Source: an uncultured Bacteroidales bacterium
GTDB taxonomy: Bacteria > Bacteroidota > Bacteroidia > Bacteroidales > Bacteroidaceae
Direction: 5' to 3'
Length of the DNA: 64,000 nucleotides
NCBI GenBank assembly: GCA_902787575.1
Contig: CADAGX010000015.1
Coordinates: 114,743-178,742 of the forward strand
The position numbers and the translations under genes were made by a program. Below are positions 4,634-62,467 of this stretch, in pieces. The notes beneath the pieces are model-generated. The model made no database searches. It had not been told where the DNA came from and worked only from the letters and a program-made list of their open reading frames with translations. Position 1 is the stretch's first letter. Each line of letters starts with the position of its first letter.

Positions 4634-4708
4634 AAACTACGTGTAGTTTTGCTCGAAACTACACGTCGTTTTTCGTCATGCGACGCGTCGCAATTTTCAA
4701 TGCGACGT
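4634..4708. repeat. 22-bp phased palindromic repeat array, locus A (4 units)
   Basis: Units start at 4634, 4656, 4678 and 4700, exactly 22 bp apart. Their cores are CTACGTGTAG, CTACACGTCG, GCGACGCGTCGC and a partial GCGACG. The array fills the gap between the convergent S41 protease and FAD oxidoreductase genes and touches the stop codon of the latter. Read on the minus strand, the first unit is AAAACTACACGTAGTTTT followed by more T, so it might also end transcription of the oxidoreductase gene. Related arrays are listed at 10426, 20727, 27436, 36012, 38970, 50293 and 62449. Confidence 0.8.
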
Positions 4709-6303
4709 TACTTAATCTCAGCAAAGCGCTGCATCACCTCCTCGTGACTGACGTGCTGCACCACCCCATTGCACTTACGAATAGCCAAACTGGCTGCGAT
4801 GGCCGCGCTTTCGCCCAGCACCATGAAGACCGGCTCCATGCGGATGCTGCCATACGCAATGTGCGAGGCCGAAAGACACACGGGAACCAGCAGGTTGCAG
4901 GCTTCCGCCTCAAACGGAGTGATGCTCCGATACGACACGCCGTAGGCTCCCGGCAGCCGAATCTGCACGTCGCCCTCGTTTTTCACCATTCCATTCACCA
5001 CATAGCGACCCGTGTTGTGCGAGTCCATATTGTATGCCGCCCAGCCCACAGCGTCCGAAACAGGCGCTTTCTCGCGCAGGCAGTCGCCTTGCGTCATAAC
5101 GTATGGCCCAACCATGCGGCGCGACTCGCGGATGTAGAGCTGTGGCGTAAAGTGTCCGTGCTCTTCGTATTCGTCGCGCGGCAGGCCCCACTCGCCAATC
5201 TCGCGCCTCACAAATTCAGGCACACGCGCATCGTGACCGACAAAGTAGAGCAGCCCCAGCGTGTAGTCGAGGTGGGCGCGATGCAGGCGCTCGCGCTTCT
5301 TGTAGCTCGCCTCGGGGTAATCCCAGTTCTCGCCTATCATGTCGGTGCTAAACGCACCGTTGTTGTTCACATCCGTCTTGTTGTTTGGCATACGGTCCCA
5401 CTTGAAACAATCGTTCAGTCCGCGCCACGGCTGCACTTCTTTCAGGCGGAGCAGCAACTCGTAGCGTGTGGAATCGTAGCGGGCAGGGCGAGTAATCGGC
5501 AAGCGATTGGCCGGATCGTTTGTCAACGTGAGGCGAAAATTATACGCCTGCACGCGTTTGTCGGCCTGCCCCGTCTGTCCCATCTCGCCCGGCAGTATGC
5601 CATAGAGAAGGCCGCTGGCCGGATTTCCCTTTTCGACGTACGGATCCACGCCGTCGGGGAATTGATGTTTGTCGCGCATCTGCAGGCCATTGTAACTCTC
5701 GCCGTACGTAGCACTGCTCTCGCGGCCCACCACATACGAAACGCCGGCACGCGCCATCAGGTCTCCCTCGTAACTACAATCGATGAAGACCTTGGCACGG
5801 ACCGTTGCGCGACGCTGTTTCACTCGTTTCGACGCACGTTCGAGTGTGATTTCGCGTAGTCGGTTTTCTTTTTTCACCACTTTGCAAATGCGGCGCGACA
5901 TGGTCACATCCACACCTGACGCCTGCAACATCTGACGATACACGCTGAGAGCCACCTTGGGTTCGAACTTGAAAACTGGAGCATCCGCACCATAGCATTT
6001 TCCGACTCGGCTGTAGAAATCCAGCGCCAGGCCTTTGATAATTTCCACGCGACCTATGTCAGTGAAGCCCAGCCCGCCGGCCGTAAGTCCGCCGATGCGT
6101 TCGCCCGGTTCCACAAGCAGGACAGAGCAACCTTCGTGACGCGCCGTAATGGCAGCAATGATGCCTGCCGACGTGGCACCATACACGCACACATCCACAT
6201 CGCTCACACGCGGCAAGTCATCCCAACGCTCTTGGGAAAACAACAAACAAGGCACGCAAAACACCATACCGCATGCCACAAAAAGATTTCTGAAAGCTTT
6301 CAT
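4708..6303 (-). CDS. Exported FAD-dependent oxidoreductase
   Basis: This is a protein of about 531 residues. The start at 6303 is chosen over the longer frame (6330) because an AAAGGAG Shine-Dalgarno lies just upstream and the protein then begins with a clean signal peptide (MKAFRNLFVACGMVFCVPCLLFSQ). The mature part opens with a dinucleotide-binding segment, DVCVYGATSAGIIAAITA, then EPGERIGGLTAGGLGFTD, as in the FAD-dependent oxidoreductase family (PF12831 type) common in secreted Bacteroidetes proteins. FIDCSYEGDLMARAGVSYVVGRES and the C-terminal GESAAIAASLAI segment also fit that family. The substrate is unknown; relatives often sit with polysaccharide-use genes, but no such context is seen here. 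Confidence 0.85.
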   Translation of the reverse strand: MKAFRNLFVACGMVFCVPCLLFSQERWDDLPRVSDVDVCVYGATSAGIIAAITARHEGCSVLLVEPGERIGGLTAGGLGFTDIGRVEIIKGLALDFYSRVGKCYGADAPVFKFEPKVALSVYRQMLQASGVDVTMSRRICKVVKKENRLREITLERASKRVKQRRATVRAKVFIDCSYEGDLMARAGVSYVVGRESSATYGESYNGLQMRDKHQFPDGVDPYVEKGNPASGLLYGILPGEMGQTGQADKRVQAYNFRLTLTNDPANRLPITRPARYDSTRYELLLRLKEVQPWRGLNDCFKWDRMPNNKTDVNNNGAFSTDMIGENWDYPEASYKKRERLHRAHLDYTLGLLYFVGHDARVPEFVRREIGEWGLPRDEYEEHGHFTPQLYIRESRRMVGPYVMTQGDCLREKAPVSDAVGWAAYNMDSHNTGRYVVNGMVKNEGDVQIRLPGAYGVSYRSITPFEAEACNLLVPVCLSASHIAYGSIRMEPVFMVLGESAAIAASLAIRKCNGVVQHVSHEEVMQRFAEIK

Positions 6304-6331
6304 ACTGATATCTCCTTTTGATTTCACCATG

Positions 6332-6361
6332 CAAAGATACGAAAAAAATCATTGAAACAAA
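6332..6361 (-). promoter_or_regulatory. Bacteroidetes-type promoter for the FAD oxidoreductase
   Basis: On the minus strand TTTG (6361-6358), 18 bases and TATCTTTG (6339-6332) match the Bacteroidetes -33/-7 consensus. The expected transcript start is about 20 bases before the ATG at 6303. Confidence 0.6.
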
Positions 6362-6430
6362 GAAAAAGAATATCGACAGCAGAAAAAAGAAAAAGGAGAG
6401 CGAAGCATTGCTCCACTCTCCTTTCGCATT

Positions 6431-6515
6431 TGGTGCCCAGAACAGGACTCGAACCTGCACGCCTCGCGGCACACGCACCTGAAACGTGCGCGTCTACCAA
6501 TTCCGCCACCTGGGC
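6431..6515 (-). tRNA. tRNA-Leu (anticodon CAG), copy 2, CCA encoded
   Basis: The minus strand folds as a class II tRNA. The acceptor GCCCAGG pairs with CCTGGGC-type 3' sequence. There is a D-arm GCGGAATTGGTAGACGC, an anticodon loop TTCAGGT giving CAG, a long variable arm and a T-arm with GGTTCGAGTCC. The 82-nt body is identical to the copy at 6712-6793. The bases after the discriminator A read CCA here, unlike the other copy. Confidence 0.93.
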
Positions 6516-6525
6516 AAAAATTTTG

Positions 6526-6568
6526 AGCGGCAAACGAGACTCGAACTCGCGACCTGAGCTATTGCCGC
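6526..6568 (-). pseudogene. tRNA-Gly remnant with an internal 30-nt deletion
   Basis: On the minus strand this 43-nt stretch has the first 14 nt (acceptor 5' strand plus the start of the D-arm) and last 29 nt of the intact tRNA-Gly(GCC) at 6807-6879. The 30 nt between them, holding most of the D-arm and the anticodon arm, are missing. Acceptor and T-arm sequences are otherwise unchanged, and four flanking bases also match. It cannot be a working tRNA. It lies directly before the second tRNA-Leu(CAG), as the intact Gly lies before the first, so it looks like a decayed duplicate of a Gly-Leu pair. Confidence 0.85.
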
Positions 6569-6589
6569 AAATGAAGGAAACCACAGCCG

Positions 6590-6672
6590 TGAAGAGGAGG
6601 AGACTCGAACTCCCACGTCGCAATGACACTACCACCTCAAAGTAGCGCGTCTACCAATTCCGCCACCTCTCC
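6590..6672 (-). tRNA. tRNA-Leu (anticodon GAG)
   Basis: The minus strand folds as a class II tRNA. The acceptor GGAGAGG pairs with CCTCTTC, including one G-T pair. The D-arm is GCGGAATTGGTAGACGC, the anticodon stem is CTACT/GGTAG, the loop TTGAGGT gives GAG, and the T-arm has GAGTTCGAGTCTC. The 3' CCA is not encoded. It lies between the intact Gly-Leu pair and the degraded one. Confidence 0.92.
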
Positions 6673-6711
6673 GTAACTTTTCCTTCGTGACACTGCATAA
6701 ATATTTTTTCG

Positions 6712-6793
6712 TGCCCAGAACAGGACTCGAACCTGCACGCCTCGCGGCACACGCACCTGAAACGTGCGCGTCTACCAATTCCGCCACCTGGGC
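6712..6793 (-). tRNA. tRNA-Leu (anticodon CAG), copy 1
   Basis: This class II tRNA is identical over 82 nt to the copy at 6434-6515. The anticodon loop TTCAGGT gives CAG. The 3' CCA is not encoded (the bases after the discriminator are CG). It follows the tRNA-Gly by 13 nt, so the two are almost certainly one transcript. Confidence 0.93.
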
Positions 6794-6806
6794 TTTCGCA
6801 CGCGGG

Positions 6807-6879
<73 letters not shown>

Positions 6880-6953
6880 AAATGCGCGCAGGATTTACGC
6901 AGTGTTATGTCATAATTTCAATTCTCAAAGCCAATTCCGCTGAATTGCGAGTG

Positions 6954-6985
6954 CAAAATTATATCTTTTTCGTGTAATGGCCAAA
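6954..6985 (-). promoter_or_regulatory. Promoter of the tRNA-Gly/Leu array
   Basis: Minus strand TTTG (6985-6982), 20 bases and TAATTTTG (6961-6954) are a full match to the Bacteroidetes promoter consensus. The predicted start lies about 65 bases before tRNA-Gly, leaving a 5' leader to be processed. The rest of the 6880-7038 gap shows no gene. Confidence 0.65.
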
Positions 6986-7038
6986 GGTTTCACGAGTTTT
7001 TTTCTACAAAAATGCACTTTGTAGCGCAGAAACTGCGG

Positions 7039-8178
7039 TCAGTCCATACGCAGACGATAGTCGTCGTACGTAAAACGACGTAGCAGTTCGCGAGTTCCGT
7101 CGAGGTGCTCAAAGCAGATGTCAGGGTGCGTAATGCCGTTGAAGACGTTTGTCTTCACAGTTGTGTAGTGCAGCATGTCCTCGAAGATAACCTCGTCTCC
7201 CACCTCGAGGGCCTTCGGAAATCGCCAACATCCCATGTAGTCTCCGCTCAGGCAGCTGTTGCCGCCAAGCCGGTAAACGTTAGCCTCCGAATTCTTGCCT
7301 GCATAATCTGCAGGCAGCGACTGCGCGCCGCGAACTGCGGGCTGATACGGCATCTCGAGGCAGTCGGGCATATGACAGGTGAAGGACGTGTTAAGGATGG
7401 CGGTGCGTATGCCATGATTCTCCACCACGTCCACCACCTCAGCATGCAGCGCGCCGGTTTGCCAGGCAAAGGCGCTGCCGGGTTCGAGTATGACACGCAG
7501 ATTTGGGTATCGCGCGCGCACGTTCCTTATTATATTAACTAACGTTTCTAAATTGTACCCTTGTCGCGTCATCAGATGGCCGCCGCCAAGATTGAGCCAG
7601 CGAAGCTTGGGCAGCCAGCGTCCGAAGCGTGCTTCGAGGTGTTGCCACGTGTTGGCGAGCGACTCGGCGCTGCTCTCGCAGTGACAATGACAGTGAAATC
7701 CTTCTATCTCCGACGGCAGAATGTCGGGCATCTGACTGGCCAGAACTCCGAAACGACTGCCCGGCGCACAAGGATTATACAGCTCGGTCTCTATCTCGCT
7801 ATACTCGGGATTCACGCGGATGCCGCACGAAATGTGGCGTTCGAAGGCTCGCACCTGCGGCAAGAAACGCTCGAACTGCGAGAAACTATTAAACGTAATG
7901 TGGCTGCTGCACGACATAATGGTGGGAAACTCCTCGTCGCAGTACGCCGGCGAATAGGTGTGCGCCAAACTTCCGAACTCGTTTTTGGCAAGAAGCGCCT
8001 CACAAAGTGAACTGGCTGTCGTGGCGGAAATATATTCGCGGAACAGTGGGAAGGTCTTCCACAACGCGTAAGCTTTAAACGCCAATATAATCTCAGCTCC
8101 GCTGCGGGCTGCGACATCGCGGATTAGCGAGAGGTTGCGCCGCAAAAGGCGCTCTTCGAGAAGATAAAACAGCCTCAT
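7039..8178 (-). CDS. nspC: Carboxynorspermidine/carboxyspermidine decarboxylase
   Basis: This 379-residue PLP enzyme of the alanine-racemase fold removes the carboxyl group from carboxyspermidine or carboxynorspermidine, the last step of the alternative polyamine route used by many Bacteroidetes. The PLP lysine is in ILAFKAYALW (K35), HCHCHCES and LNLGGGHLMTRQGY fit the family, and EPGSAFAWQTG and GGNSCLSGDYMG carry the expected C-terminal binding residues. The partner carboxyspermidine dehydrogenase is not in this window. The ATG overlaps the stop of the upstream PCMD-like gene (TGATG), so translation is probably coupled. Confidence 0.94.
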   Translation of the reverse strand: MRLFYLLEERLLRRNLSLIRDVAARSGAEIILAFKAYALWKTFPLFREYISATTASSLCEALLAKNEFGSLAHTYSPAYCDEEFPTIMSCSSHITFNSFSQFERFLPQVRAFERHISCGIRVNPEYSEIETELYNPCAPGSRFGVLASQMPDILPSEIEGFHCHCHCESSAESLANTWQHLEARFGRWLPKLRWLNLGGGHLMTRQGYNLETLVNIIRNVRARYPNLRVILEPGSAFAWQTGALHAEVVDVVENHGIRTAILNTSFTCHMPDCLEMPYQPAVRGAQSLPADYAGKNSEANVYRLGGNSCLSGDYMGCWRFPKALEVGDEVIFEDMLHYTTVKTNVFNGITHPDICFEHLDGTRELLRRFTYDDYRLRMD

Positions 8179-9143: not shown

Positions 9144-9173
9144 ATCTTCAATATTATATTTTACGTTCGTCTG

Positions 9174-10334: not shown

Positions 10335-10339
10335 AAATG

Positions 10340-10371
10340 CAAAGGTACGATTTTTTTTCGTCATAGGCAAA
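10340..10371 (-). promoter_or_regulatory. Promoter of the outer-membrane barrel / PCMD / nspC operon
   Basis: Minus strand TTTG (10371-10368), 20 bases and TACCTTTG (10347-10340). The predicted start point falls on or next to the ATG at 10334. Confidence 0.6.
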
Positions 10372-10425
10372 AACGAAGAAGAAAACACATGCTTCTCCAC
10401 CCTATTGAACATCGCTGCAGAAACA

Positions 10426-10526
10426 CTACACGTAGTTTTTAAAAATCTACACGTCGCATGAAGCAATGCGACACGTCGCGTGAAGCAATGCCACACGTCG
10501 CGTGAAGCGATGCGTCACGTCGCATC
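10426..10526. repeat. 22-bp phased palindromic repeat array, locus B (5 units)
   Basis: Units start at 10426, 10447, 10469, 10491 and 10513, at spacings of 21, 22, 22 and 22 bp. The cores are CTACACGTAG, CTACACGTCGC, CGACACGTCGC, CCACACGTCGC and CGTCACGTCGC. Units 2-4 also share the spacer GAAGC. The array lies between the C10 protease terminator and the promoter of the barrel operon. Confidence 0.85.
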
Positions 10527-10533
10527 TCGGACA

Positions 10534-10573
10534 GGAAAAAGAAGGCGCCCCAATCCCATGTGGACTGAGGCGC
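10534..10573 (-). terminator. Rho-independent terminator of the rnf-galE-C10 protease unit
   Basis: On the minus strand a 12-bp stem (arms at 10573-10562 and 10556-10545, two G-T pairs) with a 5-base loop is followed by CTTCTTTTTCC. It lies 30 bases past the stop of the C10 protease gene. Confidence 0.8.
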
Positions 10574-10602
10574 ACTCTAATGCTTGAAATGATGCAACGT
10601 CG

Positions 10603-13600
10603 CTACTTTACAAATATCTTGCGACCGCCAATGACGTACACACCGGGCTTCAGACCCTCGGTTCTGACGCCTCGATTGGAGACAAACGCCTTGCCAACGC
10701 GCTGACCCTGCAGGTTGTAGACGGGCAAAATGCCCGAAGGCTGCGTGCGTACCACACCCACTGCGTCGGGATTGCCCAGCACGGGCACCGGCGGAAGAGG
10801 TATAGAATCTGCACGGACACTGTCTGGCAGCGTAGTTGTGAAGTATGTTTTCAGCGGTTCTATCTTGGTCGTAGCGCTGAAAACAAAGGCCGTACCTTCG
10901 GCATTCATAGCATAGACGTTCTTCAGCGACGTTTCAAGCGTCACGCCGTACTGGTTGTAAGTCGAAGAACTGACAACGAAATTCGTGGTTCCCGACTTTG
11001 CGAACAACGCATCGCTGCCTTCGAATACCAGCGTCTTGCCTGCCAGTTCCTTAGCTCCCGCAATGATGTAGGGAGTGTTGGCACGCAACACTGTTGTCTT
11101 GCTGAACGCGGGAACGCCACGGCTGAGGTAGCTAAACTCGTAAATGGCGAATGGAAGCGAGTCGGACTGCACCGAGTATCCGACGGAATCAACCATCAGC
11201 GTATCGGGAACGAAAGGCAGAATGATGCTCTCCCACTTGGAGCCGCTCTCGGCGGGGAACGTGTAACTGAACGTTGCGCGCTCTGCCCGGAAGTTATTCG
11301 GCACGAAGTAGGGATGACCGTCGGCTATGTTAATCACTTCTGCCACGTTACCTTTCACCACATTCGACTCTTCCAAACCAGTGGGCAGGGGCGTGTCGTC
11401 TGCAATACAGTAAATGGCATTCGGATTGGTACGGCTCGGCGTCATGCGCGTGGTCGAAGTTCCGTTCAGATAAAGGCCGCAAGCTGCCGTGGGCGTGGTC
11501 AGCAGCGCCTTTCCGGCCTGACATTTCAGCAAGCCCGCACTTGTCCAGTACAAAACACCGGGGGTCGGCTTGTACTTGTGCGCGTTGTTCCACAACGCAC
11601 CATTCTCGATAGTTCCGCTCTGGCCCACGTAATAAACCACGAGATAGTAGTTACGGTCGTATTTCAGGTTCTCGAAGTTGAACGACGCAGTTGACGTCTT
11701 AGATGGTGCGATAGACATGGCAACTGTCTTGCTCGACGAACTCCAGTACGTGTTGGAGTTGTTGGCGCCCTGCTCCCAGATTTGAATCTTTACCTTGCCG
11801 TCGAAATGAGTCTTGGCCTGATTCTTGATAGAAACCGTGCCTTGGAAACGATTGCTGTAGATGACGCTATTCGAAGAGTTGGTGATGGAAACAGCGCTCA
11901 GATACAAGTTAGCTGCGCTGGTGGACGTGGAAGTAATCTCCACCTCAGTCTGTCCGTAAGTCTTTGACCCGTTGTTGTCGCAGAGATACAACGAGAAAGT
12001 ACCAGTTGCGTCGGGTGTGAAGAAAAGTTCGAACTCTCCGGTCTCGCCTGCCTTCAGCGCAACCATCGTACGGCTGTCTATCTTATCTTTCTTGCCAAAG
12101 CCTCCATAGAGAGATAGCTCCTTATAGAATTCTCCGCCCTCGTTGCGAATTCTCACCTTCACCGGCTGCTCTTCGTTCTTCACGCGCGTGCCAGTCACCA
12201 TAATGGTGTCCACCACGATATTTTCCACCGGGTTAATGATTTTCAGCGTCGGGATGCCAAGTTTATTTACGGTAGCCTCTATGTATTGTTTTCCGAAGTC
12301 GTATTGCGGATGCCACACTTTGCTACGAACCAATTTCGAAGCCGGCGAAATTTTATACACACCTTCGGAAAGACGGCGCCGCAGGTCGAGACTCTTTGTT
12401 TCGGACGCGCCAGAAGCCTTGCTCGCCATCGTAGTTGAAGTTCCGGTAATCAGTTCTACAGAATCATTCTCTTCGTTCAGCACAACCAAGCCGATGTTGA
12501 AACTATTCGTAGCGCCAGTATTATTTTTATAAGTGGCGCTAACGGAAGTACCGGACACGGAAATGCTGGAAATGTCCATACGTAATTCATCTATCGGGAA
12601 ATCTACACCGGGTTTGCGCAGGTACATCAGACAGCCGTTACCCATGCAATATCCGTCCGACGTGCTGCTGGCGCCAGCTCCCGAGCTATCGCCGGGATTG
12701 AGAGACGTGATAACAAACCAGCCATTGCTCGAACCGCCCCAACCCCAGTTGAGATGGAATAGTCCCTCACCATCGAAACCGTCCACCACGAATGCGTGGC
12801 CGCCGCCCGACGTGTGACCGTTGTAGAGCAACGGGTAGCCGTTGTCCAACTCGGTGTAGATCAAATCAAACCACTCGTCGATTCCGAAACTGCTGCGGTT
12901 CAACCAGCGGCAGCACTTGTCGTACCCGAAATAATTGACTGCTGCATCTCGAAAACTGCTTGTCACAGCACCAGACGAAGCGCCATAACCCATTTTTACA
13001 GACTGTCCCGCGTACCAAACCAAGTCGCCAACAGCTTTCTTCTCGGCCGCCGTAGCATCGCTGCCATATGTGGCGAGCATATTTGCCCAATCAATCACCG
13101 AACCTTTTGGAATGGCGGGAGAAGTGACGCTTTTCTTCGTTCCGTCAGAAAGTGTGTATGTATTCGTCAGCGCCGGAATGTTGGCAATCGTCTTGTCGGG
13201 GTAGTGATGATGGTAAAGCACCTGTGCAATTGCAGTTGCCACGCAGCCAGAAGCCGGCCGACCATTCGTGCCATCCGACTTTATGTAGTTCGGGCAGCTG
13301 GAATTGTACGGGTCGCCCTGATTCCACCGCGTGGGCAAAATTTCGGGAATGCTGTGCCGCACGCTCTTGGCCCGGCGGGCGAGAATTCTTTTTTGTACCT
13401 GCTCGGGCGAAATTTCCACGTTCTGTTCGTCCAGTTCCTGGATTTCCTCTGCGTACTGCTCCAGCAGGCCTTTCATACTCTCGGGCAAGGCATCTGCATC
13501 AAAGTCGCCTTGTTCTACATATCCCAACACGCGCTCTGTGCGATCGTCGCCCGAGACAATTACATATCCATTGCCGGCACCAGCGTTGAACACGTAGTAG

Positions 13601-13785
13601 GACGAAGCCGTTGCCTGCGATTTTCCTTTTCGCGGAGCGCGGTACGGAGCAGAAGTGGAGAGCAGGAATTTTCCTCTGGAAGCCAGAAACTCCTTTGCCA
13701 CGTTCTGAGCCGACTGTTGTCCTACGGGCTCAGCAAAAGCCTCAAATGGCAATATTGCTAAAAGAAAGAATAAATACTTTTTCAT
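10603..13785 (-). CDS. Secreted C10 (streptopain/interpain-like) cysteine protease, large form
   Basis: 1060 residues from the ATG at 13785, where a signal peptide (MKKYLFFLLAILPFEAFA) begins; the frame extends upstream but overlaps galE. A Spi-like propeptide follows (residues ~20-145, with YYVFNAGAGNGYVIVSGDDRTERVLGY). The C10 catalytic domain has the nucleophile C181 in GRPASGCVATAIAQV, H330 in GGGHAFVVDG, and LNWGWGG. About 600 residues of beta-sandwich modules make up the middle. The end, VYNLQGQRV...LKPGVYVIGGRKIFVK, resembles a Bacteroidales C-terminal secretion or anchoring tail (type IX is an inference). It probably degrades host or dietary protein outside the cell. It lies 16 bases after galE. 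Confidence 0.92.
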   Translation of the reverse strand: MKKYLFFLLAILPFEAFAEPVGQQSAQNVAKEFLASRGKFLLSTSAPYRAPRKGKSQATASSYYVFNAGAGNGYVIVSGDDRTERVLGYVEQGDFDADALPESMKGLLEQYAEEIQELDEQNVEISPEQVQKRILARRAKSVRHSIPEILPTRWNQGDPYNSSCPNYIKSDGTNGRPASGCVATAIAQVLYHHHYPDKTIANIPALTNTYTLSDGTKKSVTSPAIPKGSVIDWANMLATYGSDATAAEKKAVGDLVWYAGQSVKMGYGASSGAVTSSFRDAAVNYFGYDKCCRWLNRSSFGIDEWFDLIYTELDNGYPLLYNGHTSGGGHAFVVDGFDGEGLFHLNWGWGGSSNGWFVITSLNPGDSSGAGASSTSDGYCMGNGCLMYLRKPGVDFPIDELRMDISSISVSGTSVSATYKNNTGATNSFNIGLVVLNEENDSVELITGTSTTMASKASGASETKSLDLRRRLSEGVYKISPASKLVRSKVWHPQYDFGKQYIEATVNKLGIPTLKIINPVENIVVDTIMVTGTRVKNEEQPVKVRIRNEGGEFYKELSLYGGFGKKDKIDSRTMVALKAGETGEFELFFTPDATGTFSLYLCDNNGSKTYGQTEVEITSTSTSAANLYLSAVSITNSSNSVIYSNRFQGTVSIKNQAKTHFDGKVKIQIWEQGANNSNTYWSSSSKTVAMSIAPSKTSTASFNFENLKYDRNYYLVVYYVGQSGTIENGALWNNAHKYKPTPGVLYWTSAGLLKCQAGKALLTTPTAACGLYLNGTSTTRMTPSRTNPNAIYCIADDTPLPTGLEESNVVKGNVAEVINIADGHPYFVPNNFRAERATFSYTFPAESGSKWESIILPFVPDTLMVDSVGYSVQSDSLPFAIYEFSYLSRGVPAFSKTTVLRANTPYIIAGAKELAGKTLVFEGSDALFAKSGTTNFVVSSSTYNQYGVTLETSLKNVYAMNAEGTAFVFSATTKIEPLKTYFTTTLPDSVRADSIPLPPVPVLGNPDAVGVVRTQPSGILPVYNLQGQRVGKAFVSNRGVRTEGLKPGVYVIGGRKIFVK

Positions 13786-13801
13786 ATCACTTATTTTAAG
13801 G

Positions 13802-14836
13802 TTACATGATTCCTCGTTCGCGCAGCGCCACCTGCCACTTCCATGCGCTGCGAAGCACGTCGTCCAAAGGTGTGTCGGCCTTCCATCCCAAAACTCGGTT
13901 TGCCTTGTCCACATTTCCCCAGACCTTTTCAATGTCGCCGGCGCGACGGCCAACGATTTCGTAGTTTAGTTTCACGCCAGTGGCACGCTCGAATCCATTT
14001 ATCAACTCCAGCACGCTCGTTCCCTGCCCCGTACCTATATTATATATCTCGACGGGCTTTTCCGTCTTGCCGTCAAGAATCCGAGACATGGCGCAAACAT
14101 GAGCCTTAGCAAGGTCCACAACATAAATATAATCTCTGATACACGAGCCGTCGGGCGTGTCGTAGTCGTCGCCAAAGACAGAGAGTTTCTCTCTGATGCC
14201 GATTGCTGTTTGTGTGAGGAATGGAATGAGGTTCTGCGGCACGCCGTTTGGCATTTCCCCAATGATAGCAGACGGATGCGAGCCAATGGGATTGAAGTAA
14301 CGAAGTATGATACTCTGGATGGGAGAGCCGCTCTTCACCGTATCCTGTATGATTTCCTCATTTATCTGCTTTGTATTTCCGTAGGGGCTCTCGGCCTTTT
14401 TTATCGGCGTCTCTTCGGTTGCAGGCAACTGGTCGGGCTGGCCGTAAACGGTGCAGGAGCTGGAGAAAATAATGCCCTTGACCTGATACTTCGGCATGAG
14501 TTCGAGCAGATTTACCAAGGAGAGAATATTATTTCTGTAGTACAGCAACGGCTTCTGCACGCTTTCGCCCACAGCTTTGCTGGCTGCAAAATGTATGATA
14601 CCGCGAATGCCTTGATACTTTTTGAAGACTGCTTCTGTGGCTGCGAAGTCTTGCAAATCCACTTTCTCAAAGGCGGGACGGTTTCCCGTAATCTTCTCTA
14701 TTCCGTCTATGACGTTTGCTTGACTGTTGCTCAAGTTGTCAACGATGACCACATTATAGCCAGCATTTTGCAATTCTACGGTCGTATGACTGCCAATGAA
14801 GCCCGTACCACCTGTGACAAGTATCGTTTCTTTCAT
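13802..14836 (-). CDS. galE: UDP-glucose 4-epimerase
   Basis: This 344-residue extended short-chain dehydrogenase interconverts UDP-glucose and UDP-galactose in the cytoplasm. The NAD-binding motif GGTGFIG is at residues 9-15. DLQDFAATEAVF, the substrate-region SSSCTVYG and the catalytic YGNTK (YxxxK) are present, and RYFNPIGSHPS follows. It starts 11 bases after rnfA stops and is followed 16 bases later by the C10 protease, so it is likely read from the rnf promoter. The link to Rnf is probably only positional. Confidence 0.96.
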   Translation of the reverse strand: MKETILVTGGTGFIGSHTTVELQNAGYNVVIVDNLSNSQANVIDGIEKITGNRPAFEKVDLQDFAATEAVFKKYQGIRGIIHFAASKAVGESVQKPLLYYRNNILSLVNLLELMPKYQVKGIIFSSSCTVYGQPDQLPATEETPIKKAESPYGNTKQINEEIIQDTVKSGSPIQSIILRYFNPIGSHPSAIIGEMPNGVPQNLIPFLTQTAIGIREKLSVFGDDYDTPDGSCIRDYIYVVDLAKAHVCAMSRILDGKTEKPVEIYNIGTGQGTSVLELINGFERATGVKLNYEIVGRRAGDIEKVWGNVDKANRVLGWKADTPLDDVLRSAWKWQVALRERGIM

Positions 14837-14847
14837 TTTATTGTATA

Positions 14848-15468: not shown

Positions 15469-15515
15469 ACCTTATTATATATTATATACGTTAGACAATT
15501 TTGCTATCACACGGT

Positions 15516-20624: not shown

Positions 20625-20726
20625 GCGTTTTTTTGCTTCACGGCCGCACTTCCGCTCATCTTTTTCTGTCAAAAATAGTGTTTTTTCATTTTGCACCCTT
20701 CGTTTCGACGCTTCGCGTCCTGAAAA

Positions 20727-20812
20727 CCACACGTAGTTTTAATAAAAACTACACGTCGCAATGACCAAAACCACACGTCGTATTTTTCGTGCCACACGTC
20801 GTATTTTCCATG
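20727..20812. repeat. 22-bp phased palindromic repeat array, locus C (4 units)
   Basis: Units begin at 20727, 20749, 20771 and 20792, spaced 22, 22 and 21 bp. The cores are CCACACGTAG, CTACACGTCGC, CCACACGTCG and CCACACGTCG. The array sits between the two divergent promoters, ending 38 bp before the -33 box of ispE. Confidence 0.85.
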
Positions 20813-27376: not shown

Positions 27377-27435
27377 GTCAGTTTCTAAAAAACAACAGGC
27401 AATATTGATTGCTGCCACACACGAAAAATAATTTG

Positions 27436-27470
27436 CTACACGCAGTTTCCAAAAAACTACGTGTGACAAG
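27436..27470. repeat. Phased palindromic repeat, locus D (2 degenerate units)
   Basis: Two units at 27436 (core CTACACGCAG) and 27457 (CTACGTGTGA), 21 bp apart. They lie in the 232-bp gap between the exported-protein gene and the trp promoter. The rest of that gap shows no gene. Confidence 0.65.
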
Positions 27471-27550
27471 TCTTGGTGCGACATATTGCAATAAGAATCT
27501 TACGATTCGTTATACAAAAACACCGAATTTTATTCTTTTCTTAAGCGCGC

Positions 27551-31882: not shown

Positions 31883-32683
31883 ATGCCAATACAGGACATA
31901 CTTCAGGAAATAGTGGCGTGGAAGAGATTGGAAGTGACACGTCAAAAAGAAATTGTGACGCCTCGCAAACTCTATTGCGACGTGCAGAAAAATTTTTGCG
32001 ACACGTCGCAGCGCAGCATGCGAAAGGCGCTGGCCGAATCGCCGACGGGCATCATTGCAGAATTCAAGCGCCGCAGTCCGTCGAAGGGATGGATTTCCAC
32101 GAGAAACGACCTGCCAGAAACCGTGCCGACAGCCTACGCCCAAAACGGTGCCTCGGCCATCAGCATTCTGACGGACGAGAAATTCTTTGGCGGCACACTC
32201 AGTTTTCTGAGCACAGCCCGACGCCAAGTCTCTATCCCGCTGCTGCGCAAAGACTTCATCATCGACGAATATCAAGTCTTCGAGGCAAAAAATGCCGGGG
32301 CAGACGCCATACTGCTCATTGCTGCCGTGTTGCCACCGAAGGTGTGCGCCAGTTTTATCCGTACGGCCCACGAGATTGGGCTGGAGACGCTGCTCGAGTT
32401 GCATTCCGAAAGCGAGATTGATGCGTACGGCGGCTTGGACACGGACATGTTAGGTGTGAACAATCGGAATCTGGGCTCGTTCGTCACCGACGTAGAAACG
32501 TCGTTTTTGCTGGCACCACGCTTGCCGGCAGACAAAGTGCTCGTCAGCGAGAGCGGCATTGGCAGTGCCGCCGTCATCCGCGACCTGCGTCAGGCCGGAT
32601 TCCGCGGTTTCCTGATGGGCGAACACTTCATGCGTGCCGAGAATCCTGGTTTGGAACTGAAGAAACTGCTTGCCGAAATCTGA
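31883..32683 (+). CDS. trpC: Indole-3-glycerol phosphate synthase
   Basis: 266 residues, TIM barrel. It closes the indole ring by decarboxylating CdRP. The catalytic segment GIIAEFKRRSPSKGWI, then ISILTDEKFFGGTL, RKDFIIDEYQ, GVNNRNLGSF and VSESGIG are present. The stretch between the first helix and SMRKAL (residues ~17-45, LEVTRQKEIVTPRKLYCDVQ...) is encoded by DNA resembling the window's 22-bp phased repeats; see locus I at 31977. The gene begins 49 bases after trpD. Confidence 0.96.
   Translation: MPIQDILQEIVAWKRLEVTRQKEIVTPRKLYCDVQKNFCDTSQRSMRKALAESPTGIIAEFKRRSPSKGWISTRNDLPETVPTAYAQNGASAISILTDEKFFGGTLSFLSTARRQVSIPLLRKDFIIDEYQVFEAKNAGADAILLIAAVLPPKVCASFIRTAHEIGLETLLELHSESEIDAYGGLDTDMLGVNNRNLGSFVTDVETSFLLAPRLPADKVLVSESGIGSAAVIRDLRQAGFRGFLMGEHFMRAENPGLELKKLLAEI
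31977..32010. repeat. Possible phased repeat inside trpC, locus I (2 units)
   Basis: GCGACGTGCAG at 31977 and GCGACACGTCGCAG at 31998 are 21 bp apart and match the repeat core. Weaker resemblances lie upstream (TGACACGTCA near 31935). The stretch stays in frame within trpC. The match is weaker than in mutY and could be chance. Confidence 0.4.
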
Positions 32684-35897: not shown

Positions 35898-35929
35898 CAA
35901 AGTTAAGGCTTTTATTCGTCGCGTCCAAA
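35898..35929 (-). promoter_or_regulatory. Promoter of ssb, inside the 3' end of mutY
   Basis: Minus strand TTTG (35929-35926), 20 bases and TAACTTTG (35905-35898). The -33 box lies in the mutY coding sequence, so ssb can be made independently of mutY. Confidence 0.65.
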
Positions 35930-36982
35930 CATGTGCGGGATTTTCTCGCAAATCCTTTCCATCAGCCGCGGCTGTGGAAGCGCAGAAAACTGCGCGTCGT
36001 CTGCCCAAAAACCACACGTGGTTTCTGAAAAACTACACGTCGCATCGGCCGATGCCACACGTCGCGGCTCGAGTTGCCACAGCGAGGCATGAATGAGTTG
36101 ATGCGTAAGCTGGTGAGTTATCTCGGGCACGAGGAGCGTCAGGCGGCTGTCGGGGAAACGCTTTTCGAGTTCCACAGCCGAGAGCGGGGCCTCACTTTCC
36201 ACCAGCGGGAACTGATAAAGCCCTTGCCAGATATCGCCAGACGGGCGGCGCTCAAGCATGATATCTCCGGACGCGGAGCGCAGCAGCAGATATGTGAAGT
36301 ATCGGTGGCGTACCTTCGTGCGGCGCTGCTTGCAGGGCAACTCGCCAACTCGCCGGCGGGCAAAGCCCAGACACAAATCGTTGAGCGGACACGCCGTACA
36401 ATCGGGAGCAGAAGGCGTGCAGAGGAGCGCGCCGAAATCCATCAGCGACTGGTTGTAAAGTGCAGGACGACGGCGGTCGAGCATTTCGTCGGCCAAGGCG
36501 CGGAACGTTTTGTGCCCCAGCGTGGTATCAATCGGCGTGTCGGTACACGTAAAACGCGAGAGAACCCGATAGACATTGCCGTCGAGCACTGCAAACGGCG
36601 CGTCGAAGGCCAGGCTCATCACAGCCGCTGCCGTGTACTCTCCCACTCCGCGCAGCGAACGCAACGCATCGTAGTCGGTCGGGAAACCGCCCATCGCCAC
36701 AGCCTGACGGGCGGCAGCCAGCAGATTGCGGGCACGACTGTAATATCCCAAGCCCTGCCACAGACGCAGCACCTCCACTTCCTCGGCCGCGGCAAGCGAC
36801 TCCACCGTGGGGAAACGCGAGACGAAGCGCAGATAGTATTCCATCCCCTGCGCCACACGTGTCTGCTGCAAAATCACTTCGCTAATCCAAATCAAGTACG
36901 GGTCGCGAGTATGACGCCACGGCAAATCTCGGCCGTTGCGCCCATACCAATCCTCTATGCGAAGTGCAAACTCCTGAACCAT
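35912..36982 (-). CDS. mutY: A/G-specific adenine glycosylase
   Basis: 356 residues from the ATG at 36982 (a GTG is just before it). DNA repair enzyme removing A paired with 8-oxo-G. The helix-hairpin-helix LRGVGEYTAAAVMSLAF with the catalytic Asp in AVLDGNVYRVLSR, the LQQTRVAQG loop, and the 4Fe-4S cysteines of CTPSAPDCTACPLNDLC are complete. The C-terminal NUDIX-like domain follows (YLLLRSASGDIMLERRPSGDIWQGLYQFP). Residues ~306-324 of this domain are encoded by a three-unit phased repeat (locus E), read through in frame. Confidence 0.95.
   Translation of the reverse strand: MVQEFALRIEDWYGRNGRDLPWRHTRDPYLIWISEVILQQTRVAQGMEYYLRFVSRFPTVESLAAAEEVEVLRLWQGLGYYSRARNLLAAARQAVAMGGFPTDYDALRSLRGVGEYTAAAVMSLAFDAPFAVLDGNVYRVLSRFTCTDTPIDTTLGHKTFRALADEMLDRRRPALYNQSLMDFGALLCTPSAPDCTACPLNDLCLGFARRRVGELPCKQRRTKVRHRYFTYLLLRSASGDIMLERRPSGDIWQGLYQFPLVESEAPLSAVELEKRFPDSRLTLLVPEITHQLTHQLIHASLWQLEPRRVASADATCSFSETTCGFWADDAQFSALPQPRLMERICEKIPHMFGRDE
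36012..36066. repeat. 22-bp phased palindromic repeat array, locus E, inside mutY (3 units)
   Basis: Units at 36012, 36033 and 36055, spaced 21 and 22 bp, have cores AACCACACGTGGTT (a 7+7 perfect palindrome with two central bases when extended), CTACACGTCGC and CCACACGTCGC. The array is translated on the minus strand as VASADATCSFSETTCGF within the MutY C-terminal domain, about 85 bp before the ssb -33 box. Confidence 0.8.
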
Positions 36983-37003
36983 CACAAACTAAATTTCAGG
37001 CTG

Positions 37004-38954: not shown

Positions 38955-38969
38955 CAATTATTCGGATAC

Positions 38970-39005
38970 GACACGCAGTTTCCGTCGGAACGACGTGTGG
39001 AAAAA
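38970..39005. repeat. Phased palindromic repeat, locus F (2 degenerate units)
   Basis: CGACACGCAG at 38970 and CGACGTGTGG at 38992, exactly 22 bp apart, lie between the convergent rng and uup genes. Confidence 0.6.
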
Positions 39006-39034
39006 ACAAAACCGCGCGTGGAAATCCGAGGGAC

Positions 39035-44175: not shown

Positions 44176-44238
44176 GCCAGGGAAATAATTCGGTATAGCA
44201 GAAAAAGCAAAAACACATATAGTTAAAATCACTTAAAA

Positions 44239-44294
44239 CGTCGCATTCAGCCATACAAAACGAAGTTTTGGCGAATGCGACGCTTCGTTTTTTC
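44239..44294 (+). terminator. Long hairpin terminator after the TlpA-like gene
   Basis: Outer arms CGTCGCATTC (44239-44248) and GAATGCGACG (44273-44282) pair perfectly, and inner arms CAAAAC/GTTTTG pair around GAA, giving one long interrupted stem. CTTCGTTTTTTC follows. The GCGACG half-site resembles the phased repeats, so the element may be derived from one. Confidence 0.75.
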
Positions 44295-50253: not shown

Positions 50254-50290
50254 AAGGCTCCCTCGGCACAAGCTGAGGGAGCCTTTTTTA
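50254..50290 (+). terminator. Terminator of the RND efflux operon
   Basis: Stem GGCTCCCTC...GAGGGAGCC (50256-50283) with inner GC pairs and an ACAA loop is followed by TTTTTTAT. Confidence 0.9.
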
Positions 50291-50292
50291 TA

Positions 50293-50377
50293 GCGACGCG
50301 TCGCAAGTGAAAATGCGACGTGTAGTTTTCATTCACGCGACGTGTAGTTTTCGCTCACGCCACACGTCGCATTTTTC
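50293..50377. repeat. 22-bp phased palindromic repeat array, locus G (4 units)
   Basis: Units at 50293, 50315, 50337 and 50359, all exactly 22 bp apart. The cores are GCGACGCGTCGC, GCGACGTGTAG, GCGACGTGTAG and GCCACACGTCGC. Units 2 and 3 also share the spacer (TTTTC..TCAC). The array fills the space between two converging terminators and is the most regular in the window. Confidence 0.88.
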
Positions 50378-50429: not shown

Positions 50430-50474
50430 ATTGTACGTTCAGGAAATAACGGGCTGAATCAGCCACGATAAGCC

Positions 50475-50912: not shown

Positions 50913-50992
50913 ATCGTTACTAAAAATATTAAATGTTTCGGGCCACAAAGTTACTAAAAAAATTATAAAACCGACTTTTTCCATTTAATTTT

Positions 50993-51036: not shown

Positions 51037-51050
51037 TAAACTTCAAGAAT

Positions 51051-52175: not shown

Positions 52176-52189
52176 AAAAAGGATACTGC

Positions 52190-52960: not shown

Positions 52961-52965
52961 AGCAT

Positions 52966-55054: not shown

Positions 55055-55056
55055 TT

Positions 55057-59677: not shown

Positions 59678-59702
59678 ACAACCGCATAAAACGCTACAAA
59701 AT

Positions 59703-60803
59703 ATGAGCATCATCAAGTGTCCCGAATGTCAGCAGCCAGTTTCTACGATGGCCGGCACATGTCCCCACTGCGGAACGCCGATTGCGGGGAATATTACGAA
59801 ATGTCCCAGCTGTCAGAACTTTATACTCAAGGAGCAAGAAGTCTGCCCGCACTGCGGAAAAGCGATACAAACACCTGCCGAACCGCAGGTCGCCACGGCA
59901 CAGACGAAACCAGCCGCAGCCACTCCGCCGCAGCAGAAGCCGAAGAAACGTAGCTACGGCTGCCTAAAAAGCATGATAGCATTCCTGCTGGTGGCAGCAA
60001 TCGCAGGCGCCGGCGGCTGGTACTGGTATCAGCGGCGCACGGAGCAACGCGAGGCGGCAGACTACGCCCTGCTGGAAAACGTAACGAACCCGCAGTTCTA
60101 CGAGCAGTTCCTCACAGACCATCCAAACAGCATCTACTGCGAGAACGTGCGACGCCGCCGCGAAAAATTACTGGAGGAGACCGCCGAATGGGAGGCCGTG
60201 GCACGCTCGCGCAGCCGCATCGAAATACTGAAGTTCCTGCAGGCACACCCGAAGTCGGTGCGTCAGAGGGAATGCAACGACATGCTCGACTCCATCGACT
60301 GGAACGACGCACTCAGCATCGGCACGCTCGAAGCCATGAGCAACTACCTGTCGAACCATCCGAACGGCCTCTACGCAGCCGAGGCATCGGAGCAGATGAA
60401 CGAGCTGGGACGCTCGCGCATCTCGCCCGAGGAACGTAGTATCATCTACGGCGTGCTGGACGCATTTTTCACGCAGGGCATGGCTCGGCAAGATACGGCC
60501 ACCATATCGCGGCTGACGCAGGACATTCGCTTCTGCGGCACGCCGAGTGCCACGCCCCAGCAAGTGTTACAGTTCATGCAGTCGAAGCAGGCAGCCGACG
60601 TTATCGGCCTTCATTATCTCGTTAACACCGACCTGAATCTGAGACGCGAAACGCTGGAGGACGGCAAACTGGGCTTCGCAGTGGATTTCTCGCTCGAGGA
60701 AACTCTCAGTCGCACGGATGCCAACCAGCCCAACTGCCACACGTATCGTGTGTCGGCACAGCTGAACGCTGAGCGGCGAATCGTGCAAATGAACATTCGA
60801 TGA
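59703..60803 (+). CDS. Double zinc-ribbon membrane protein of unknown function
   Basis: 366 residues. Two zinc ribbons open the protein: CPECQQPVSTMAGTCPHCG and CPSCQNFILKEQEVCPHCG. A Pro/Ala/Gln linker follows, then one membrane helix (SMIAFLLVAAIAGAGGWYWY, residues ~90-109). The outer part is helical and TPR-like (ALLENVTNPQFYEQFLTDHPNSIYCENVRRRREKLLEE, repeated loosely as EAMSNYLSNHPNGLYAAEASEQMNEL) and ends in a ~100-residue NTF2/beta-type region. The topology suggests cytoplasmic zinc ribbons and a periplasmic domain. I cannot name a function. It overlaps the MATE gene by 4 bases. Confidence 0.75.
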   Translation: MSIIKCPECQQPVSTMAGTCPHCGTPIAGNITKCPSCQNFILKEQEVCPHCGKAIQTPAEPQVATAQTKPAAATPPQQKPKKRSYGCLKSMIAFLLVAAIAGAGGWYWYQRRTEQREAADYALLENVTNPQFYEQFLTDHPNSIYCENVRRRREKLLEETAEWEAVARSRSRIEILKFLQAHPKSVRQRECNDMLDSIDWNDALSIGTLEAMSNYLSNHPNGLYAAEASEQMNELGRSRISPEERSIIYGVLDAFFTQGMARQDTATISRLTQDIRFCGTPSATPQQVLQFMQSKQAADVIGLHYLVNTDLNLRRETLEDGKLGFAVDFSLEETLSRTDANQPNCHTYRVSAQLNAERRIVQMNIR

Positions 60804-62101
60804 GTCATCACAAGGAGATTCTGCGGCTGGCGCTGCCGTCTGTCGTCACAAACATCACGGTGCCACTGCTGGCGCTGGCCGACACAGCCATCGTAGGCCA
60901 CCTGGGACAGGCAGCATTCATCGGTGCAACGGCCATCGGCGGAACCATCTTCAGCATGATTTACTGGATATTTGCCTTCCTGCGCATGGGTACCACAGGT
61001 CTGGTGGCTCAGGCTCGCGGCAGGCAAGACCGGTCGGAGGCTCGCACAATTCTGGTTCGCGCCCTACGTCTGTCGGTCTGCATCAGCACGTTGCTGCTGA
61101 TACTACAGATGCCAATCCTACGTGTGGCGCTCTATTTCATGGCGCCCGCGCCCGAAGTCTCGCAGCTCGCCTCGCTGTATTTCCGAATCGTCGTTTGGGG
61201 AGCGCCGGCAGTACTGGCACAATACGTACTTACGGGCTGGTACATCGGAGAGCAGGACACGCGCTCGCCCATGTTGGTGGCGCTGGCGCAAAACCTGCTC
61301 AACGTGGCGCTGAGCCTGACACTGGTGTACGTAGCACGAATGGGCTTTGCCGGCGTAGCCATGGGCACCGTCCTCTCGCAATGGGCAGGTCTGCTCTTTG
61401 CCATCGGGCTGCTACGCCCATACATCCGAGGGGCAAAAAGTTCGCTGCCACCTGTCGATACCACAGAGACGGCCACCTGGCGCCAGATGCTACGCGTGAA
61501 CAGCGACATTTTCCTGCGCACGGTTTGCCTTGTGGCGGTGACCGTCAGTTTTACAGCCGCAGGCAGCCGACAGGGCGAACTCACGCTGTCGGCCAACATG
61601 CTGCTGATGCAACTTTTTATCCTCTATTCCTACTTTACCGACGGGCTGGCCAATGCCGCCGAAGCGTTGGCCGGAAAATGGGACGGCGCAGGCTGCCGCC
61701 GCGAACTGCACCAGACGGTGCGCTGCCTGTTTGCGCAGGGCGCTGTCGTGTCGGCCGCCTTCTGCCTGCTCTACCTGCTGGGCGGACGAACGCTGCTGGC
61801 GCTGCTCACCAACGTGGAAACCGTGCGGCTGACAGCTGCCACCTATCTGCCCTGGGCGTCGTTGATACCCATAGTGGCGCTGCCGGCAATGGTGTGGGAC
61901 GGAGTTTTCATCGGACTGACATGGACGCGGGGAATGCTTGGCAGCATGTTTCTGGCCATGTGCCTCTTCTTCGCTCTGCTGACGTGCTGCCAGCAGTTGG
62001 GCAACCACGCGCTGTGGCTGGCTTTCGACAGCTACCTTCTGGCGCGCGGCACGATACAAACCTGCTATGTAATCAGAAAATCAAATCGTCATGAATTTTA
62101 A
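60800..62101 (+). CDS. MATE family efflux transporter
   Basis: 433 residues with about twelve membrane helices. EILRLALPSVVTNITVPLLALADTAIVGHLGQAAFIGATAIGG is a typical MATE start, close to DinF-type members (LADTAIVGHLG). Polar residues in YSYFTDGLANAAEALAGKW fit the second half. It exports cations, drugs or metabolites using Na+ or H+ gradients; substrates are unknown. It overlaps the zinc-ribbon gene by 4 bases and the DUF4491 gene by 11 bases. Confidence 0.93.
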   Translation: MSHHKEILRLALPSVVTNITVPLLALADTAIVGHLGQAAFIGATAIGGTIFSMIYWIFAFLRMGTTGLVAQARGRQDRSEARTILVRALRLSVCISTLLLILQMPILRVALYFMAPAPEVSQLASLYFRIVVWGAPAVLAQYVLTGWYIGEQDTRSPMLVALAQNLLNVALSLTLVYVARMGFAGVAMGTVLSQWAGLLFAIGLLRPYIRGAKSSLPPVDTTETATWRQMLRVNSDIFLRTVCLVAVTVSFTAAGSRQGELTLSANMLLMQLFILYSYFTDGLANAAEALAGKWDGAGCRRELHQTVRCLFAQGAVVSAAFCLLYLLGGRTLLALLTNVETVRLTAATYLPWASLIPIVALPAMVWDGVFIGLTWTRGMLGSMFLAMCLFFALLTCCQQLGNHALWLAFDSYLLARGTIQTCYVIRKSNRHEF

Positions 62102-62405
62102 CGGCATACTCATCGGGCTGGGGACCTTCCTCATCATTGGGATTTTTCATCCCCTCGTGATAAAATCTGAATACCACTTCGGCCGTCGCATCTGGCTGGC
62201 GTTCTTTTTGGGCGGCCTCGTGTTCTGCGCGCTCAGCCTCTTCTGCAAAAACCAGATTGCAAGCATACTGTTGGGAGTTGCGGCCTTCTCTGCCTTCTGG
62301 GGCATAGGCGAAGTGTTCCACCAGCACAAGCGGGTGCAACGCGGATGGTTCCCCATGAATCCAAAACGGAAAGCCGACTACGAAAAACCTGCGGGCGAGA
62401 AATAA
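62091..62405 (+). CDS. DUF4491 family small membrane protein
   Basis: 104 residues with three hydrophobic segments (GILIGLGTFLIIGIFHPLVI, IWLAFFLGGLVFCALSLF, IASILLGVAAFSAFWGIGEV) and a basic C-terminus (HKRVQRGWFPMNPKRKADYEK). This matches DUF4491, a short family in Bacteroidetes and Firmicutes. No function is known. It is last in the dnaN-to-MATE gene run. Confidence 0.85.
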   Translation: MNFNGILIGLGTFLIIGIFHPLVIKSEYHFGRRIWLAFFLGGLVFCALSLFCKNQIASILLGVAAFSAFWGIGEVFHQHKRVQRGWFPMNPKRKADYEKPAGEK

Positions 62406-62422
62406 AATTCCACCTCGTGGAA
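62404..62422 (-). terminator. Probable terminator of the cytidine deaminase gene
   Basis: On the minus strand TTCCAC-GAG-GTGGAA (62422-62408) is followed by TTTTATTT, reaching into the DUF4491 stop codon. Confidence 0.55.
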
Positions 62423-62448
62423 AAAATTTTCTCACGCGCCGAAAGAGA

Positions 62449-62467
62449 AAAACTACACGTCGCTTGG
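62449..62467. repeat. Phased palindromic repeat, locus H (single clear unit)
   Basis: AAACTACACGTCGC lies between the convergent DUF4491 and cytidine deaminase genes. A faint second unit (CTCACGCG) stands 22 bp to its left. Confidence 0.5.

Follow-up and report, generated by a model that had tools for sequence, protein, structure and literature searches.

Among the described systems closest to the element studied here, repetitive extragenic palindromic (REP) sequences and REP doublets forming hairpins (REPINs) have a GTAG (or CGTC) tag at one end of the palindrome and a cognate REP-associated tyrosine transposase (RAYT), according to the available part of PMC3733652. As the accessible portion of PMC4596501 describes it, BrickBuilt of Porphyromonas gingivalis is a miniature inverted-repeat transposable element (MITE) with a 23-nucleotide tandem unit, a leader, and a tail; it forms one sequence family at 19 loci, with up to 22.8 units. 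PINSR of Prevotella intermedia and Prevotella nigrescens is a single 188-bp repeat in the available excerpt of PMC4755523, and the excerpt available from PMC12306157 did not mention Prevotella. Here, we describe arrays of short palindromes that are phased at 21 to 22 bp and recur across a 64,000-nucleotide stretch of DNA (the window) from an uncultured Bacteroidales bacterium, and we consider whether they are operator arrays of HU-HIG proteins (PF18291). No paper on such phased palindrome arrays was found in a literature search whose reach left out most subscription papers.

HU folds act as dimers, and integration host factor (IHF) is a sequence-selective member of the HU/IHF superfamily. In Bacteroidetes, the HU family has an expanded branch, HU-HIG, for which we know of no established DNA target and of no phased palindromic arrays with paralogue-specific sequence dialects. 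Arrays in which one protein has several phased sites are known from parS, iterons, and phage operators. The HU-HIG branch is reportedly treated by Burroughs et al. 2017.

The window spans C15:114743-178742 of a draft genome, G000, which has 2.645 Mb in 34 contigs; G-numbers denote genomes, C-numbers denote contigs, and L-numbers denote sampled loci. The nearest relatives of the RNase E/G encoded in the window, among the entries of a named collection from which the window's own record was possibly excluded, were rumen and gut Bacteroidaceae metagenome-assembled genomes, with RUG13359 the best at 87%.

Palindromic units phased at two helical turns

The palindrome RCBACRYGTVGY had 568 matches in the whole 2.645-Mb genome compared to 90 for the reversed pattern, and 20 matches in the window compared to 1. 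The initial annotation of the window had proposed a family of YAC-N2-GTR sites at eight loci, and palindromic units were indeed present at 8/8 of them; the genome-wide excess that such a family predicts was also found. As a motif, the minimal core fared less well, since its 50 matches in the window compared to 52 for the reversed form represented no enrichment, and it was the fuller palindrome that was enriched.

Spacing was examined in the window plus 400 kb from contigs C1 and C2 (464 kb). When successive RCBACRYGTVGY matches were less than 100 bp apart, the distance was 22 bp in 61 of 71 cases and 21 bp in 5 of 71. Pairs of units identified with a position weight matrix (score of ≥8) numbered 86 at 22 bp and 15 at 21 bp, and the reversed control yielded 0 at either distance. 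In a set of 49 distinct arrays, which also took in loci chosen by motif and for which unit chaining allowed 21 to 23 bp, the 142 spacings were 126 of 22 bp and 16 of 21 bp. The 21- or 22-bp spacing first noted in the window therefore extended beyond it. The 49 arrays contained 2 units (7 arrays), 3 units (8), 4 units (22), 5 units (10), 6 units (1), or 9 units (1); four units was the commonest size and nine the largest. Because 31 arrays of at least two good units were present in the 464-kb sample, we estimate by extrapolation that G000 holds roughly 180 arrays. A two-unit sequence model, which scored 150 candidate stretches and thus gave a lower bound, had at least 174 matches in G000 with both strands counted.

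The half-site was RCNAC and occurred in discrete forms, chiefly AATGCGAC, CACGCCAC, and AAAACTAC, and the center of the unit was AC, GT, or GC; AT was permitted by the pattern yet avoided (1/113 units). The variable base of the half-site was identical on both sides in 35 of 113 G000 units compared to 42.4 expected (p = 0.49) and in 64 of 191 units of a larger G000 set (0.34 compared to 0.38 expected). In a second species, G025, the two bases agreed in 14 of 47 units compared to 20.6 expected, and in a third species, G081, they agreed in 9 of 18 units compared to 8.5 expected, which was uninformative. Between mirror units, bases paired in 52 of 172 cases (0.30). The mixed half-sites that had been noticed within units were thus confirmed, with left and right halves varying independently. 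Because of this independence, the units look like double-stranded palindromic sites of a dimer and not like hairpins; palindromic units at a constant helical phase, read as double-stranded DNA, are what was found here and what a dimer operator array presents.

These data also bear on whether the palindromes act as RNA or single-strand hairpins, that is, as terminators, attenuators, or cruciforms. The palindromic form itself, the A-rich outer flanks at array ends, and the terminator-like hairpins that some arrays follow are compatible with such a role. However, pairing covariation was absent within units and between mirror units, no Rfam match was found at arrays, and arrays showed no preference for gene 3' ends. 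RNA hairpins were rejected because half-site bases lacked covariation in G000 and G025, and we regard hairpins of any of these kinds as highly improbable. A clustered regularly interspaced short palindromic repeat (CRISPR) array was rejected as well, as had been done from the outset: the gaps were 10 bp, the period was 22 bp, and no Rfam family was present at the arrays (no cas search was made).

Conserved architecture and divergent dialects in relatives

The exact G000 motif was scarce in 36 same-genus genomes, which had 1 to 43 matches, each count being under that genome's own reversed control, and it was likewise rare in 24 genomes of other families. A motif-free detector, which called arrays when three units were alike and palindromic, was run at periods of 18 to 27 bp on 139 loci (2.52 Mb), including L300 and L301, which were picked because they held motif matches. 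It identified 46 arrays (44 distinct) at period 22, 0 to 7 at each other period, and 0 in the control, a first-order Markov sequence. The same array architecture was present in the genus and in Prevotella, Hallella, and Hoylesella, and so the peak at 21 to 22 bp that the initial annotation had called for outside the window was found both in G000 at large and in relatives. No period-22 arrays were found in 257 kb from other families of the order.

The palindromic core was AACCAGTSACTGGTT in G017, CGCANC-RY-GNTGCG in G025, CTCCCCTAGGSGAG in G002, AAAATAGGCTATTT at L109, TTCTTCGCGAAGAA in Prevotella vespertina (L159), and ACCACGCCGTGGT at L134. Some genomes contained several dialects, with at least 3 in G035. 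Thus, the architecture is conserved and the palindromic core differs between species. The two-unit G000 model, applied across the genus with stricter filters to 47 stretches per genome, matched in 23 of 139 genus genomes, G000 included, which is a lower bound; since related dialects occurred in these genomes, array expansion was not unique to the window's species. In G017 (L190-L208), we also observed a dispersed intergenic element of ~190 bp, in near-identical copies, with a four-unit array inside.

Mobile repeats

G000 contained one match to a Y1 transposase, which was RAYT-like (C1:149869-150471). A hairpin repeat of the GTAG type (GGAATTTG...CAAATTCC), unrelated to the arrays, flanked this gene in several copies (C1:149300-150620 = L027:9300-10620), and one more copy of this hairpin repeat stood directly behind a long array near C1:146700. 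RAYT mobilization of the arrays was rejected because the sole RAYT gene found in G000 has its own GTAG-type repeat and because relatives of this RAYT occurred in 27 of 139 genus genomes, a count that includes G000. The REP-like mobile repeat that had been offered as an alternative reading of the window is consequently disfavored in its RAYT form. In addition, the sites were near-symmetric, with CGTC or GTAG only inside half-sites and on either side (113 sites), the G000 RAYT was not flanked by the array repeat, and the compensatory changes of a hairpin were absent.

In a broader form, this explanation holds that the arrays are selfish dispersed repeats (of REP, REPIN, or MITE type) that owe their spread to a transposase recognizing phased palindromes. 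The lineage-specific array numbers, the intergenic location, and the G017 array within its dispersed element would follow from it. So would the likeness of neighboring units, whose left halves were identical in 39 of 66 cases compared to 26.1 expected, a likeness that is also as expected from tandem duplication. On the other side, a Y1 transposase at E up to 0.001 was not found in 18 of 24 same-genus genomes (incomplete drafts, with no search for a dedicated DDE transposase), the 10-bp spacers of G000 varied (48 different among 61), and no common flank of G000 arrays was seen by eye. On balance, we think it unlikely that the arrays are selfish repeats.

Arrays upstream of HU-HIG genes

Clear HU-HIG genes (best E value of ≤1e-12) were found in 34 of 37 genus genomes compared to 2 of 24 other-family genomes (G047 and G059). 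Forty HU-HIG genus genes were picked from the better-scoring matches, and lag-22 repeats were scored within 400 bp upstream. In one of the locus sets, 46 of 66 loci were used, with 16 left out for want of a tblastn hit and 4 left out as shortened or duplicate. Such repeats were located upstream of 19 of the 40 HU-HIG genes compared to 56 of 727 other genes. The latter control ignored promoter length, and matching to controls with at least 150 bp free upstream, which had lag-22 repeats in 47 of 240 cases, reduced the odds ratio from 10.8 to 3.7 (p = 4e-4). When per-genome rates were used, 8.8 HU-HIG promoters with repeats were expected compared to the 19 of 40 observed (P = 2.3e-4). HU-HIG genes therefore had an array in their own promoter more often than other genes did, which is the pattern that autoregulation predicts. 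In G059 and G047 together, repeats at lags of 21 to 23 were found upstream of 8 of 20 HU-HIG genes compared to 5 of 81 other-family controls (p = 4e-4), and control promoters of other-family stretches had lag-22 repeats in 0 of 70 cases. At the G047 HU-HIG loci L395, L397, and L399, the upstream repeats had a period of 23, not 22. We also observed 11-bp direct repeats (AAATCCGGTC-like, one helix turn) just upstream of a G017 HU-HIG gene (L347, positions ~1300-1380).

Several HU-HIG promoters carried the dispersed dialect of their own genome. The window's dialect was present just upstream of two G000 HU-HIG genes, C8:88656-89012(-) and C14:1-243(-), the second of which is cut by the contig end, and both promoter arrays stood directly behind TAACTTTG, a sequence that resembles the Bacteroides -7 element. 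The single clear HU-HIG gene of G025 (C16) was preceded by that genome's dispersed dialect, and four of seven HU-HIG matches in G035 (L355, L362, L367, and L371) had arrays whose dialects recurred in the sampled genome. Further matches were found at G012 C15 and at G017 C22, where the array was inside the dispersed element.

For a systematic comparison, 30 of 51 HU-HIG genes were taken, and 22 of these were testable; the rest lacked a three-unit array or a genome stretch, and some of the 22 promoter dialects were poor, A+T-rich arrays. Eight of the 22 occurred again as phased pairs within the sampled sequence of the genome they came from, which ranked first of 28 for seven of these eight and second for one. 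This identity of dialects is in itself no proof of cognate binding, since the promoters of ordinary genes in array-rich genomes hold arrays too.

Predicted fold of the candidate binder

The HU-HIG protein of G000 (167 residues) matched PF18291 with an E value of 7.6e-22 (78.1 bits compared to a cut-off of 26.2). A PDB sequence search with this protein gave no match at E up to 0.01. An AlphaFold model built from a 34-sequence alignment had a predicted local distance difference test (pLDDT) score of 90.5 and a predicted template modeling (pTM) score of 0.66, and its best PDB structure matches were 4fmr (Bacteroides vulgatus) and HU/IHF chains. The protein is thus predicted to have an HU/IHF fold, and a dimeric HU fold fits palindromic sites. 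In four aligned members, the C terminus was extended by a segment resembling the winged helix of the Pfam title, so arrays occur with and without this segment.

In G035 and G025, a short gene was located behind the HU-HIG gene (L341:2194-2637, L355:1920-2318). Its product contained GLRNCNPLNIRR or GMRNNNPLNIRN, with the pattern G(L/M)RN(C/N)NPLNIR, and this gene may form a cassette with HU-HIG. One could then suppose that HU-HIG cassettes have moved and that the arrays are their recombination or mobility signals, remaining at places of past movement. The pairing of the two genes in G035 and G025 and the presence of same-dialect arrays far from the gene are in line with this idea. However, the arrays of G000 far outnumber its HU-HIG genes, and we give the cassette explanation very little weight.

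Weighing the HU-HIG explanation

We propose, with moderate confidence, that HU-HIG proteins (PF18291) are the candidate binders and that the arrays are most likely their operators, both autoregulatory and dispersed. Several observations weigh against this proposal. HU proteins mostly bind DNA with low sequence specificity. The lag-22 signal was missing from 21 of the 40 HU-HIG promoters, in one of which (G000 C8) the detector called an array, and a third G000 HU-HIG gene (C9), whose frame is interrupted by a TAG, had no array. Ordinary promoters also carried such repeats (66 of 306 pooled; 14 of 29 in G025, 10 of 26 in G035, and 19 of 74 in G000), and therefore a single promoter match could be luck and the G000 and G025 matches taken alone prove little. 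The own controls of G059 (2 of 11) and G047 (0 of 3) were too small to be used alone. As phased pairs, 14 of the 22 promoter dialects were absent from the rest of the sampled sequence of the genome concerned, and the ranking test does not separate a cognate site from one of many sites. The dialects at L367 and L371 in G035 were related and mixed within one array (L053). Finally, the dispersed dialects of G001, G002, G005, G016, G029, and G081 were not at the HU-HIG promoters inspected, which covered part of the genes and included one shortened promoter in G081.

The main rival explanation is that one or more other lineage-specific dimeric DNA-binding proteins bind the arrays and that HU-HIG genes are frequent members of the regulon or simply have long free promoters. 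The repeats carried by ~20% of those ordinary promoters whose free upstream gap is ≥150 bp (47/240) and the arrays' lack of a clear orientation preference are consistent with such a regulator. Two results argue against it: the HU-HIG excess survived matching and stratifying, and HU-HIG paralogues in one genome (G035) had different dialects, which one regulator would not explain. We judge this explanation to be rather unlikely, with a real but minor chance of being correct.

Genomic location of the arrays

Of the 31 sampled arrays, 11 were between codirectional genes, 8 were between divergent genes, 5 were between convergent genes, 6 were in called genes, and 1 was at an edge, with gene orientation taken from a crude gene caller. 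These shares were close to those of intergenic bases in the same sample (21.2 kb codirectional, 10.8 kb divergent, and 5.5 kb convergent), and no clear preference for gene orientation or gene 3' ends was detected with 31 arrays and this caller. In relatives, 43 of 44 distinct arrays were intergenic although 84% of the scanned loci was coding. Thus, the placement of arrays between genes that had been reported for the window applied to most of them, with no clear orientation preference; one exception was the array at positions 35986 to 36068, which lies within the 3' part of the mutY reading frame. This array shares sequence with native codons and adds about eight residues, and a clean insertion with an empty site was rejected on account of that overlap. 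At mutY (positions 35912 to 36985), the 3' part of the gene was composed partly of array units. The same MutY loop in a relative, G020, carried in-frame 21-bp repeats (L288), and this loop can therefore accommodate repeats as coding sequence.

The shared genes next to arrays that were inspected in several species looked metabolic or housekeeping, and no common binder was noted among them. The recurrence of arrays near RNase E/G and mutY was a product of locus sampling. In viral contigs, exact two-unit patterns of three dialects had 0 matches, exact patterns being a weak test.

Four-unit arrays in the window included the one at 4633 to 4716, which lies between convergent genes and ends in a degenerate unit (unit scores of 20.4, 19.5, 21.7, and 5.1), the mutY array, in which the first unit is weak (9.7, 19.3, 20.8, and 15.1), and the array at 50290 to 50373, which follows a terminator-like hairpin between convergent genes and has spacings of 22, 22, and 22 bp (19.0, 22.5, 19.5, and 21.1). 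Five units were present at 10422 to 10526, with spacings of 21, 22, 22, and 22 bp (19.3, 18.8, 21.6, 21.1, and 15.7), and at 20702 to 20805 between divergent genes, where the first unit is weak (9.6, 20.7, 20.4, 22.1, and 17.8). The two three-unit arrays were a degenerate one at 27432 to 27492 upstream of a PALP-family gene (11.3, 14.0, and 6.0) and one at 38965 to 39025, which is located between a terminator-like hairpin that follows the RNase E/G gene and a convergent ABC-type ATPase gene (14.0, 9.3, and 13.1). A single unit was located at 62449 to 62466 (20.6). Two marginal candidates were absent from the initial annotation: four phased units at 31931 to 32012, of which only the last is clear (5.4, 4.8, 9.9, and 14.7), and a single clear unit accompanied by three very weak ones in phase at 44209 to 44291 (4.3, 4.3, 5.6, and 18.6).

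An Rfam scan of the window identified four tRNAs and nothing else; these tRNA genes are clustered on the minus strand at 6434 to 6879, and three of them scored equally. A Peptidase C10 protein of 1116 residues with an N-terminal Spi-type inhibitor domain is encoded at 10603 to 13953.

Discussion

In the mechanism that we propose, each unit would be a double-stranded palindromic site for one protein dimer, and three to five dimers could be positioned side by side on 22-bp units; since the units repeat every 22 bp, which is two helical turns, the dimers can share one DNA face. The dimer would be an HU-HIG protein of the HU/IHF superfamily. Each HU-HIG paralogue would control its own promoter through an array and would also occupy dispersed intergenic arrays of the same sequence, where it might bend or bridge DNA; the dispersed arrays may tune nearby transcription, and binding may be cooperative. 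Since each paralogue and each species has half-site dialects of its own, cross-regulation between paralogues would not be expected. The nucleoid-type protein on one DNA face that the initial annotation had suggested remains the best fit, given the two-turn phasing, the independent half-sites, the intergenic spread, the link to HU-HIG, and the predicted HU/IHF fold, with HU-HIG as the presumed binder.

A further proposal, which we make more tentatively and would not hold to be probable, is that HU-HIG proteins are paralogue-coded, sequence-specific nucleoid proteins. Paralogues and dialects would form private pairs, dialects would diverge about as fast as species, and each protein would address its own dispersed set of arrays, with several orthogonal sets in a single cell that would partition the chromosome into domains or regulons.

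If the arrays are HU-HIG sites, they would provide a readable code between paralogues and palindromes, and orthogonal binding systems, for a multi-copy family of the Bacteroidales, and they would offer initial access to an additional level of chromosome organization or regulation in rumen bacteria. Even without a binder, a palindrome array phased at two turns, with constant architecture and changing sequence, provides a strong signature that is easy to test.

How the arrays compare with known systems can be stated for each system in turn. Like REP sequences, bacterial interspersed mosaic elements (BIMEs), and REPINs with their RAYTs, they are short, clustered, intergenic palindromes with many copies and a species-specific sequence; unlike them, they are strictly phased at 21 to 22 bp, have independent half-sites, and show no RAYT association. 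They share with BrickBuilt, as far as its accessible description goes, an intergenic location in a Bacteroidales species and a minisatellite unit close to two helix turns long. In contrast to BrickBuilt as described there, they have a period of 22/21, consist of 22-bp palindromes in many dialects, and had no leader, tail, or shared flanks that we noticed in G000. PINSR, in the excerpt available, is also a lineage-specific amplified repeat of Prevotella, but it is a single 188-bp repeat and not a phased array. The arrays of parS, iterons, and phage operators differ in that the arrays described here are many, are dispersed over the chromosome, and have dialects that turn over between species. 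The HU-HIG branch (PF18291) of the HU/IHF superfamily is matched by the predicted HU fold of the candidate binder, whereas phased palindromic arrays with paralogue-specific dialects set the present case apart from that superfamily. Taken together, the arrays are most likely dispersed operator arrays of a nucleoid-type protein, a kind that is already known.

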